In this document: positions 36,910-58,204 of the stretch, one piece after another
Layout of the letters: every line of letters begins with the position of its first letter
Numbering within the stretch: the stretch's first letter is position 1
Assembly: GCA_027484825.1 (NCBI GenBank)
Contig: JAIXSE010000005.1
Location: forward strand, 1 to 64,000
Direction of reading: 5' to 3'
DNA: 64,000 nucleotides
DNA from: Rubrivivax sp.
GTDB lineage: Bacteria; Pseudomonadota; Gammaproteobacteria; Burkholderiales; Burkholderiaceae_C
The notes under the pieces: model-generated
The model's input: only the letters and a program-made list of their open reading frames with translations
What the model was told of the DNA's origin: nothing
Database searches by the model: none
Position numbers and translations under genes: made by a program

Positions 36910-36991
36910 GAGGGCGAATACGGCAATCCGCATGCCACGGGACAGTATCTGAACCGCGGCTGACCCATTGACATCATCGTCATTTCTGACG

Positions 36992-37711
36992 ATGATTCAG
37001 CCCATGAAGTATCCAGGCGGCAAGGGTAAGACCTATCAACACATCATCAACCTGATGCCGCCGCATCGCGTCTATATCGAGACGCATCTGGGCGGCGGCG
37101 CAGTGCTTCGCAACAAGCGGCCCGCCGAGCATTCCATCGGCATTGATGCCGACGAACGTGTGGTCGCCCAATGGCGCGCACGGACGGCGGACCCGCCCAC
37201 GGACACTGCATATCCAGATCTTGAATTGATATGCGGGCGGGCGGAGGAATTCCTCGCCCGCTATTCGTTTCTGGGGGATGAACTGGTCTATGTGGACCCG
37301 CCCTATCACCCAGACACCCGGCGGCAGCCGCGGGTCTATCGATGTGACTATGACGTCGAGGACCATGTCGAGTTGCTGTCACTGCTGGCGCGCCTGCCGT
37401 GCCCGGTGATCGTGTCGGGATATGCCCATCCGCTGTATGACGAGCTGCTCGGCGGATGGAATCAGAGAACCTTTCAAGCGAAGACCCATACCGACGTCAG
37501 GACAGAGACTTTGTGGTTCAACTTTGAACCCCCCGACCAGCTTCACGACAGCCGTCATCGCGGAGAAAACTTCCGCGAACGGCAGACATTGAAACGGCGC
37601 ATGGAGCGCCTGCAAGACCGAGTGCGGGCCATGGAGCCGGCTGAACGCCATGCGTTTGCCCAATGGCTGCACGACACTTATCCCGTTGCTCCCCGGAGCA
37701 TTTCCGTATGA
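36992..37711 (+). CDS. Dam-type DNA adenine-N6 methyltransferase (D12 class)
   Basis: A 239-residue solitary-type DNA adenine methylase. Motif order is that of the D12/Dam class: KYPGGKGK at 6-13 (SAM motif X), THLGGGAVLRNK at 31-42 (motif I), and VDPPY at 101-105 (catalytic motif IV). The target-recognition part between them is short, about 55 residues, so recognition sequence cannot be guessed. Starts at 36968 (TTG) and 37004 (ATG) are alternatives. Base composition is lower in GC than in neighbours. Its stop overlaps the next start (ATGA), coupling it to the DNA glycosylase gene; no restriction enzyme gene is nearby. Confidence 0.85.
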   Translation: MIQPMKYPGGKGKTYQHIINLMPPHRVYIETHLGGGAVLRNKRPAEHSIGIDADERVVAQWRARTADPPTDTAYPDLELICGRAEEFLARYSFLGDELVYVDPPYHPDTRRQPRVYRCDYDVEDHVELLSLLARLPCPVIVSGYAHPLYDELLGGWNQRTFQAKTHTDVRTETLWFNFEPPDQLHDSRHRGENFRERQTLKRRMERLQDRVRAMEPAERHAFAQWLHDTYPVAPRSISV

Positions 37712-38544
37712 CCCAGATTCTTGCCATCCTGACCCGACACGGTTCCCTGCAGCGCGAAATCCCCGCTCCCGATCAATGTGTGATGCCCGGCGTCCGCTGG
37801 GGGCATGCCGATGAGTTCCCTGCTGCGGCCTATTGGCTGCAGCGGGCGCTGACGTGGCGGCTGGAGCAGGAGACGCCGATGCGGCGGTCCAATCGGACGC
37901 TGGCTGAGGAGGTGGGGGCGTGGCTGCTGGGCGGTCAGGGCGTGACGGCTGCGGTGGCGCAGGCGGCGTTCGATCGGCTTCGCGGGCTGGGTGGGTTTGC
38001 GCGCGCCGGGGTGAGCGAGGCAGACTTCCTGGACTGGCTGAGCGAGCCGCTGGATGTGGGCGGGCAGCAGGTGACGTATCGGCTGGCGGCGCAGCGGGCG
38101 AAGTATCTGGCGGCGACGCTGCCGGCGATCTTCGAGGTGCCGCAGACGCTGGAAGGCCGAGAGCTGCGGGACTGGCTGATGGCGCTGCCAGGGCTGGGGC
38201 CGAAGTCCGCATCGGGCATCGTGCGGGCATGGTGCGGGGCGACCGATGTGGCGTTGCTGGACAACTATGTGCTGAAGGTCGGGCAGGTGATGGGACTGTT
38301 CGGGCGCAAGCTGACGGTGGAGCGCCACTATCTGGAAATGGAAGCGCGCTTCCTGCAACTGTGCAAGGCGATGTCTGTGGCAGCCCCGGATGTGGAAGCT
38401 GTGATGGCGCTGGAACTGATCCGGTCACCAGAGACGGCTCGCTTCCTGGCGGACTATCTCAAGGCGACGGAGCCCAAGCCAAAGGCTGCTCCAGCACGTC
38501 GGGCGCAGGCGCCGGAGCAGTTGTCGCTGGTGTTCACGGGCTGA
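37708..38544 (+). CDS. OGG-type helix-hairpin-helix DNA glycosylase/AP lyase
   Basis: A 278-residue HhH-GPD superfamily protein. The hairpin LPGLGPKSAS is at residues 160-169, and K166 aligns with the catalytic lysine of 8-oxoguanine glycosylases; D185 in VALLDNYVLK is exactly 19 residues later, the same spacing as K249/D268 in human OGG1. So it should be a bifunctional glycosylase/lyase; no iron-sulfur cysteine cluster is seen. Substrate is not known and 8-oxoG is only one option. Translationally coupled to the adenine methylase (ATGA). The tail is Ala/Lys/Pro-rich, ending LSLVFTG. Confidence 0.75.
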   Translation: MTQILAILTRHGSLQREIPAPDQCVMPGVRWGHADEFPAAAYWLQRALTWRLEQETPMRRSNRTLAEEVGAWLLGGQGVTAAVAQAAFDRLRGLGGFARAGVSEADFLDWLSEPLDVGGQQVTYRLAAQRAKYLAATLPAIFEVPQTLEGRELRDWLMALPGLGPKSASGIVRAWCGATDVALLDNYVLKVGQVMGLFGRKLTVERHYLEMEARFLQLCKAMSVAAPDVEAVMALELIRSPETARFLADYLKATEPKPKAAPARRAQAPEQLSLVFTG

Positions 38545-57831: not shown

Positions 57832-58204
57832 TGGTGGAGGCGGGGGGAATTGAACCCCCGTCCGCAAGCCATCCACGTACAGTTCTACATGCGTAGCTGT
57901 CTGTTTTGAATCTCGCCGATCAGGTCGCGCAGCAGCACGCTACCTCACCAGCCAGCACCCTAAATCTCACTCATGCCCAAGGTGCCCGGACACAAGCCAG
58001 CCTATGAAATTAACCTCTCAATCTTCGCCTTGCGGCTCAGACCCGGCCCATAGGCCAACCGTTGAGAGGGCCGCTGCAATTAAGCTGCGGCTGCGAACTG
58101 TGAGTCGTTTGCAGTTACTTTGTTTCCAGGTGGATTTACGAGGATACTGGCCCTCGGCATGCCCTGCGACGCATCAGAACCCACGTCGAAACCAGGTCGC
58201 CCCC
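57832..58204 (-). ncRNA. ssrA: Transfer-messenger RNA (tmRNA)
   Basis: Rescues stalled ribosomes. About 373 nt. The 5' end GGGGGCGACCTGG and the 3' end CGCCTCCACCA pair as a 7-bp acceptor stem (one G-T pair) with encoded CCA. The T-arm is CGGGGGTTCAATTCCCCC-like. The tag-coding stretch is 58080-58112 on the minus strand, GCA AAC GAC ... GCT TAA, giving the peptide ANDSQFAAAA, preceded by the conserved GTAACTGC resume context. Ends confirmed by stem pairing; helices of the pseudoknots were not drawn. Confidence 0.95.

Follow-up and report, generated by a model that had tools for sequence, protein, structure and literature searches.

A DNA glycosylase and adenine methylase gene pair of Roseateles, with relatives beside a QueC/PfkB module

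The DNA analysed here, referred to as the window, is a stretch of 64,000 nt from contig JAIXSE010000005.1 of Rubrivivax sp. (GenBank assembly GCA_027484825.1). It carries two overlapping genes, one for a short D12-class adenine methyltransferase (MT; 37004..37711, + strand) and one for an Ogg2-like helix-hairpin-helix (HhH) DNA glycosylase/AP (apurinic/apyrimidinic) lyase family protein of 278 aa (OGG; 37708..38544, + strand). The question raised by this locus is why an adenine methylase should be joined to a glycosylase. The reading that we prefer, with a probability of about 0.5, is that MT-OGG represents the arm of a mobile, immune-like module that acts on DNA, and that the genus of the window keeps this arm alone. 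The named relatives are Roseateles (86-92 % identical), and we therefore take the genus, with 16 genomes examined and referred to as such in all counts, to be Roseateles.

The MT stop codon (37711) and the OGG start codon (ATG, 37708) overlap in ATGA (37708-37711). The two genes overlap in all 23 loci measured, with gaps of -4 in 17, -1 in five and -11 in one (start codons picked by script; the viral locus L076 was left out). This bears out the translational coupling proposed in a first-pass annotation made from the sequence alone. The same annotation described the pair as alone, which is correct within Roseateles; elsewhere, OGG is part of a larger QueC/PfkB module.

The QueC/PfkB module

We examined 19 close OGG loci outside the genus, of which 11 are genome loci and 8 come from a set of 20 OGG-bearing plasmid records. 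In 18 of these, OGG is found beside a fusion of PfkB and nucleoside deoxyribosyltransferase (NDT) domains (PF00294 + PF05014) and a QueC-like protein (PF06508). The sole exception is L009 from Pseudomonas putida, where the start of the record cuts the locus 2.4 kb upstream and the record contains no QueC match. These additional genes, here called the second arm, are convergent to OGG in 15 of the 18 loci, and are accompanied by a small protein (about 105-127 aa) with a Gly/Ser N-terminus in 16 and by a nitroreductase-like protein in 14. Neither of the latter was seen in L010 and L012, and the designation nitroreductase-like was made for L011 by eye, and by similarity to L011, and not from Pfam.

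Ten of the 18 module loci carry MT and eight lack it. Thirteen loci with OGG only were scanned for open reading frames (ORFs) containing [DNS]PP[YFW], and none was directly beside OGG; the matches were a DPPY ORF about 5 kb off in L081, a DPPW ORF about 3.4 kb off in L043, and weaker ones in L046 and L047, one of the latter being a dGTPase-like ORF. Missing from eight of the module loci and furnished with an operator of its own (below), MT appears to be an autoregulator and not a protector that OGG must have, and the proposal that it is the writer in a self/non-self scheme is weakened in its obligatory version.

Among plasmid records, 19 of the 20 with OGG also hold a QueC-like gene, and 19 of the 24 with a QueC-like gene hold OGG, though the two lists were matched by hand and several records are near-identical pairs. 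The 20 plasmid records with OGG include 8 conjugative, 3 mobilizable and 9 non-mobilizable types. The five QueC records without a detected OGG are from Moraxella, Burkholderia arboris and three haloarchaea, and no MT was found in the three of these that were opened. In E. coli, a query extending from MT through PfkB was covered to at least 80 % in 18 of 5,426 genomes; the identity was 97.8-100 % in ten of these and 68.6 % in the other eight. Integrase genes are nearby in each of three E. coli loci opened, one of which is at tRNA-Sec, and a dGTPase-type gene is upstream. The dGTPases of L064 and of Moraxella L067 match the PADLOC dGTPase model (3e-146 and 1.6e-147). The search for the pair across genomes that the first-pass annotation called for shows that it recurs, its range extending from Roseateles to Citrobacter and E. 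coli and further to Pseudomonas and Synechocystis. Relatives are on plasmids and integrase-bearing islands; the pair in the window is not in a defence island.

OGG was not found in phage records. In viral contigs, no OGG was detected with a single-sequence query and seven with an alignment query. Of the seven loci, L078, L080 and L081 carry the PfkB/NDT and QueC genes, L076 carries MT, L075 (on a short viral contig) has only a nitroreductase-like gene, and L077 and L079 have neither MT nor PfkB/QueC.

Several further genes were noted near the module. Genes for dGTPase-like proteins (25-100 % identity to the one in L064) are present in L005, L043, L046, L047 and L064-L067, directly after QueC in Moraxella L067, and TIR and Abi genes were also seen; these dGTPase, TIR and Abi neighbours are raw observations. 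Alphaproteobacterial module loci without MT include an Mrr-type endonuclease gene (L011:6773-7855) or an annotated restriction endonuclease gene (L012:8945-9667 and L070:4483-4941). In a haloarchaeal locus with no OGG detected, a 362-aa protein starting MGGGSGG (L069:4652-5740) replaces the small protein, and genes with TIR domains are nearby.

Seen against other QueC-family systems, the second arm looks immune-like. Among 26 QueC-like proteins, SGGxDS and CHx5CxxCxGCxK are each present in 25 and HxDG in all 26. The first two motifs are parts of the signature reported for QueC cluster 4, which is paired with PfkB-PF05014 and for which purine salvage has been proposed (PMC13329287). The OGG-linked genes fit both this signature and this partner; HxDG is our own observation and is not part of the cited signature. 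The words glycosylase, methylase and methyltransferase are not found in the main text of PMC13329287, and the second arm is absent from the genus of the window. The small proteins start with MSGSGG, MTGTSG, MGGSGS or similar sequences, and all 23 have an M[SGTA][GST] start versus 97 of 960 control ORFs, though the script favoured starts of this type and the control ORFs were taken without such a preference. Annotated starts agree by length in eight of nine cases (L005-L008, L011, L067, L069 and L070; not L065). As described in PMC13279940, the N-terminal glycine to which QueC-family Cap9 attaches 7-deazaguanine belongs to a CD-NTase with an MGGS start, and QatB starts MGTS. The module thus shares with type IV CBASS and qatABCD a QueC-family ligase and a partner with a flexible Gly/Ser N-terminus. 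It differs in having an NDT-kinase fusion and no TGT, and in that OGG is often found with an adenine methylase; the window itself holds MT and OGG only. CD-NTase, QatA and QatD were not found in the annotations read, and unannotated loci were not searched for CD-NTases.

Two distant OGGs, in L044 and L045, belong to an operon made up of a TIR-TGT fusion, an OGG-like protein, QueC and a ThsB-type TIR protein starting MGGGGGGG (domains were scanned in L044, and assigned in L045 by 72-76 % identity). As this is a different operon, the two loci were rejected as relatives of the module and left out of the trees and of the 18 of 19 count. The operon (L044:7532-10770 and L045:3755-6990), in which a CD-NTase was not noticed among the listed ORFs, has the appearance of a type IV CBASS relative that is based on TIR. 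OGG-like proteins are therefore found next to QueC-family ligases in operons of two different types. Type IV CBASS reportedly includes an OGG-like ancillary protein.

Because Cap9 conjugates 7-deazaguanine to a protein in type IV CBASS, the module looks like a further QueC-based, immune-like system, in which 7-deazaguanine chemistry would be combined with base excision. A QueC cluster currently interpreted as purine salvage is thereby linked to a DNA glycosylase and to an adenine methylase. A tentative extension, which we rate somewhat below even odds, is that this is an undescribed QueC-based immune family. The QueC ligase would attach a base of the 7-deazaguanine type to the small carrier protein at its Gly/Ser N-terminus, and the NDT-kinase fusion would make the nucleotide, sometimes with a dGTPase nearby. 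A clamp-tethered OGG would act on DNA with that base, in many loci under an MT that represses its own leaderless promoter, and the Roseateles pair would be a domesticated, stand-alone DNA arm. No description of a glycosylase or a methylase with the QueC/PfkB module was found in the portions of the literature consulted, which is not proof of absence, and the text of the DefensePredictor paper (PMC13092281) does not contain QueC, PfkB, deazaguanine, dGTPase or nitroreductase, and mentions a glycosylase once, in a legend (UDG). Complete E. coli genomes carry the module, which makes it open to direct cloning and to coliphage challenge.

MT and its palindromic operator

MT passes the gathering score of PF02086 (MethyltransfD12; E=7.9e-10, 39.3 bits, cut-off 22), and its DPPY motif (37295-37306) is invariant in the 16 sequences aligned. 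With the Dam subfamily model TIGR00571, MT scores 42.4 bits, far under the NCBIfam cut-off of 114.85. The stretches matched take in the first part of D12 profiles, up to about 65, and the last part, from about 157 on, but not the middle. The target-recognition domain of D12 enzymes lies in the middle of the profile. The structural model of MT (pLDDT 85.7) matches E. coli Dam, DpnM, Mcbe1 in Foldseek with query-normalised TM-scores (TMq) of 0.47-0.59.

A promoter with a palindromic operator, TTGACA-TCATCGTCATTTCTGAC-GATGAT (36968..36996, + strand; consensus scan TTGACA-17-GATGAT), is found just before MT. In the whole element, TTGACATCATCGTCATTTCTGACGATGAT, 17 nt separate a -35 hexamer from a -10-like hexamer, and the palindrome lies across these parts. 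The operator arms, ATCATCGTCA and TGACGATGAT, are separated by a 4 nt spacer, and as single-stranded DNA the palindrome folds with z=-4.1. An alternative in-frame ATG for MT at 36992, the position at which the first-pass annotation begins the locus, falls within this promoter and operator element and is probably not a translation start. The start common to relatives outside the genus is the ATG at 37004 (MKYPGGKG), 7 nt beyond the -10-like hexamer; the RefSeq annotation of the E. coli MT starts about 100 nt further in than this shared start.

The operator is present with 0-2 mismatches in 24 of the 25 MT-OGG loci inspected, from which the near-copies L064 and L066 had been left out. In these 24 loci (L076 is not one of them), the two 8-base half-sites are exact in 19, with one mismatch in four and two mismatches in one. 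Between the element and the start codon lie 6-8 nt in 23 of the 24 and 39 nt in L042, and for this reason the MT mRNA is probably leaderless, with MT starting at 37004. Over 13 representatives, the majority base has a mean share of 0.90 within the element, compared with 0.42 for the 34 nt that precede it. The exact operator 20-mer occurs once per genome in the 13 Roseateles genomes with the pair, and not at all in the three without it. The promoter pattern was found in three of 398 phylum genomes, always at an MT-OGG locus, and missed G363, which has a divergent MT-OGG copy.

No operator copy with a 4-nt spacer and ≤2 mismatches was found in OGG-only loci, three of which (L010, L011 and L043) have a helix-turn-helix gene near OGG. 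As the operator goes with MT and not with OGG alone, MT appears the likeliest regulator at this site, judging by sequence association.

Relatives of MT are also found without OGG. MT matches methylases of phrog_56 and of the upf31.0 type, the latter with about 46-49 % identity in the rows read. No OGG was found at any of the 80 viral MT loci kept and scanned, and 17 of 79 viral MT loci have a palindrome copy (≤3 mismatches, within 250 bp) where about 1.9 would be expected, though many of these are near-identical phages. Of four plasmid loci with MT only that were opened, three (L168, L169 and L171; IncP) have an operator copy with one mismatch. These three IncP records share with MT the same operator and differ in that no OGG was found and the operator is about 55 nt upstream, with a leader. 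The first-pass annotation named separation of the genes in relatives as a finding that would speak against it, and this is seen in part, with OGG often found without MT and MT often without OGG. Two side observations concern the same plasmid loci: L168 has a second copy of the palindromic element about 100 nt upstream of the methylase start, and in a Methylorubrum plasmid (L170:601-1866) an MT relative overlaps a gene of the cysteine desulfurase family and a palindrome lies over its start, so that MT may be a portable regulator or writer that is joined to other partners as well.

OGG and its lineage in Roseateles

OGG passes the gathering score of PF22175 (Ogg-HhH; E=1.3e-9, 38.3 bits, cut-off 27), and at 38.7 bits does not reach the cut-off of 183 of the NCBIfam N-glycosylase/DNA lyase equivalog PRK01229. 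A profile built from 25 relatives (A3) reaches the 8-oxoguanine (8-oxoG) glycosylase/AP lyase PDB 9o00 at E=9.7e-17 and MjOgg (3fhf) at 3.1e-15. The structure prediction called for by the first-pass annotation gave a model with pLDDT 87 that resembles MjOgg, TmOgg and endonuclease III with modest TMq (0.42-0.51); against MjOgg, Foldseek gives a target-normalised TM-score of 0.57-0.62 and a TMq of only 0.45-0.48.

The catalytic-type residues K166 (codon 38203..38205, + strand) and D185 (codon 38260..38262, + strand) are both invariant in 43 of 43 OGGs, the window included, and their 19-residue spacing was correctly recognized in the first-pass annotation. In the PDB alignments, K166 faces a Lys that is Ser in chain 9o02, and D185 faces an Asp that is Asn in 9o01. 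In OGG1, the corresponding pair is K249-D268 (PMC13160076). The residue four positions after K166 (G170 in the window; codon 38215..38217, + strand) differs by genus. Outside Roseateles it is Trp in 27 of 30 sequences, Phe in one and Met in the two distant ones, while all 13 Roseateles sequences have Gly, Ala or Thr. We take this position to correspond to Cys253 in the base pocket of human OGG1. OGG is probably not a plain 8-oxoG enzyme. From the residue at K166+4, its preferred base may be other than 8-oxoG and may have shifted in Roseateles, but this is a hint only and reflects one evolutionary event.

The C-terminus of OGG is PEQLSLVFTG, and the tail is predicted to be disordered (pLDDT <50 for residues 262-278). 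It includes QLSLVF (38518..38535, + strand), a candidate β-clamp-binding motif identified from motif statistics. Tails with Q[LIM]x[LFI] are found in 25 of the 43 OGGs, including all 13 from the genus, and in 12 of the 30 from outside it, versus a mean of 0.70 and a maximum of 4 in 2000 shuffles. The tails in the viral-contig loci L080 and L078 are QLDLF and QLELF, respectively. The β-clamp consensus is given in PMC4549789 as Q-L-x-L-F, frequently C-terminal.

In Roseateles, OGG is present in 13 of the 16 genomes and adjoined by MT in all 13 (L002-L004 are repeats of the genus loci L052, L055 and L054). The pair is at two different sites, one for each sub-clade of the genus and each with shared flanks, of which L054 shares less. 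In the midpoint-rooted OGG tree, the 13 genus sequences form one clade (100/100), and their sister is L048 (95/90), a full-module locus from the same family as the genus; the MT tree gives the same sister (96/98). A family search with a positive control found no PF05014 protein in any of the 16 genomes. Each has one strong QueC, and weak partial matches were seen in two; in the window genome the one strong QueC, which has a canonical-type score, lies elsewhere in the genome. The window locus thus has no QueC-like ligase and partner of the kind that a QueC-family conjugation immune system includes, and loss of the second arm in the genus is the simplest reading. For each gene, four pairs were compared within the window clade, giving dN/dS ratios of 0.023-0.087 (MT) and 0.081-0.101 (OGG). 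Relative to the other Roseateles sub-clade and L048, it is 0.147-0.187 for MT and 0.368-0.547 for OGG, where dS is high. Judging by these ratios, the pair is under purifying selection in the genus. The Roseateles pair can be regarded as the DNA arm set apart by nature, and its operator as a simple handle on whether a methylase controls a glycosylase.

Proposed function and alternatives

If MT-OGG is the DNA-acting arm of an immune-like module, OGG would be held at replicating DNA through its C-terminal clamp-binding peptide. It would flip out and excise a non-canonical purine, probably 7-deazaguanine-like or otherwise modified, and nick the abasic site via the Lys/Asp pair, so that DNA with that base would be broken. 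MT, co-translated with OGG, would probably bind, or methylate and bind, the palindrome over its own promoter. OGG would thereby stay at a low level for as long as the operator is not free; release could come, for example, on DNA that has just entered or through a loss of methylation. In Roseateles, foreign DNA containing a modified purine would be the target of this arm acting by itself.

A number of points weigh against this reading, which is drawn from sequence comparison. No PADLOC model matches OGG, and a location of the window pair in a defence island was rejected, the six neighbours scanned being ordinary. Searches of the window genome with single QueC and PfkB queries, made without a positive control, gave no match to module genes elsewhere in the genome. 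Near-general presence in the genus suits housekeeping as well as defence, and the fast change of OGG between sub-clades could equally reflect relaxed constraint. The tail motif is missing from 18 of the 43 OGGs, including those of Citrobacter and E. coli (L005 and L065), and QLSLV in the window is without the consensus Phe at place 5. For the role given to MT, no DNA-binding domain was found in a Pfam domain scan, the viral locus L076 has MT-OGG without the operator, and an unlinked regulator could bind the operator instead.

That OGG is an ordinary 8-oxoG repair glycosylase, co-transcribed by chance with an orphan phage-type methylase, is unlikely in our view. The nearest solved structures are indeed Ogg2-type 8-oxoG glycosylases, the Lys/Asp pair is kept, and the pair is present and syntenic within genus sub-clades. 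However, the window genome already has a gene of the Fpg family (PF01149), and OGG is rare and tied to QueC/PfkB modules. It was detected in 8 of 398 genomes of the phylum (including the window genome and two distant matches), in 8 of 299 of the family (including three of the genus) and in 3 of 369 of the class (including the window genome), counts that are lower bounds, as only some first-look candidates per genome were scored in these samples. The residue at K166+4 is aromatic, mostly Trp, in 28 of the 30 sequences from outside the genus. OGG has the HhH fold and Lys/Asp pair in common with MjOgg and TmOgg, and differs from them in its clamp-like tail, the aromatic K166+4 outside the genus, the module context, and N-terminal β strands in the model; to our knowledge, Ogg2 enzymes lack these strands.

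Slightly less probable again is that OGG is an antidote that clears host DNA of a base made or inserted by the QueC/PfkB arm, which Roseateles would have kept as an orphan that gives immunity against incoming module plasmids. Retention of this half alone in Roseateles and the co-occurrence of OGG with QueC-like genes in 19 of 24 plasmid records are consistent with this. However, OGG was not detected in the other five records (three of which were opened), and the genus in which K166+4 differs is the one that lost the arm, which could mean a changed substrate.

A restriction-modification system in which OGG is the restriction enzyme, and MT methylates adenines that it would otherwise excise, as in the logic of PabI, appears improbable. 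Restriction glycosylases exist, and those of the R.PabI type likewise adjoin a methylase (PMC10273834); the translational overlap in every locus measured, and the lack of MT in the opened plasmid records that have the QueC arm without OGG, also suit such a system. That MT is never found without OGG in the 18 module loci was dropped as support, the loci having been chosen for OGG. A methylase would be needed wherever the glycosylase occurs, whereas OGG lacks an MT partner in eight of the 18 module loci and no methylase-like ORF is directly beside OGG in the 13 OGG-only loci. Moreover, the match of MT to D12 profiles is confined to their two ends, and the fold of OGG is HhH and not the HALFPIPE fold described for R.PabI-type enzymes. 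A concept shared with Brig1 and Brig3 is that of a glycosylase breaking modified phage DNA (PMC11078745 and PMC13160076), but both belong, in the descriptions given there, to the uracil-glycosylase superfamily; OGG is HhH by Pfam and Foldseek, and is thus not of the Brig1 type.

Finally, it is highly improbable that OGG no longer acts on DNA and instead binds a deazaguanine-protein conjugate, with a new role beside MT in Roseateles, as Cap10, a TGT-family enzyme remodelled to bind the modified N-terminus in type IV CBASS (PMC11996544), and the presence of OGG-like proteins in two different QueC-family operons would allow, since the invariant Lys and Asp and the clamp-like tails suit a DNA-acting enzyme and the genus has no QueC arm.

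The six neighbouring proteins scanned are CAP, S8 subtilase, DUF1440/DUF4126, TonB receptor, DeoR and MFS proteins. No restriction gene was found among them, in agreement with the first-pass annotation, and the single PADLOC match is to the generic 'subtilase' model. The same annotation gave the methylase gene a lower GC content than its surroundings, and this is the case for MT (0.597, relative to 0.664 for the window) and not for OGG (0.675). Elsewhere in the window, ARAGORN identified a tmRNA gene (57832-58204) with the tag ANDSQFAAAA.

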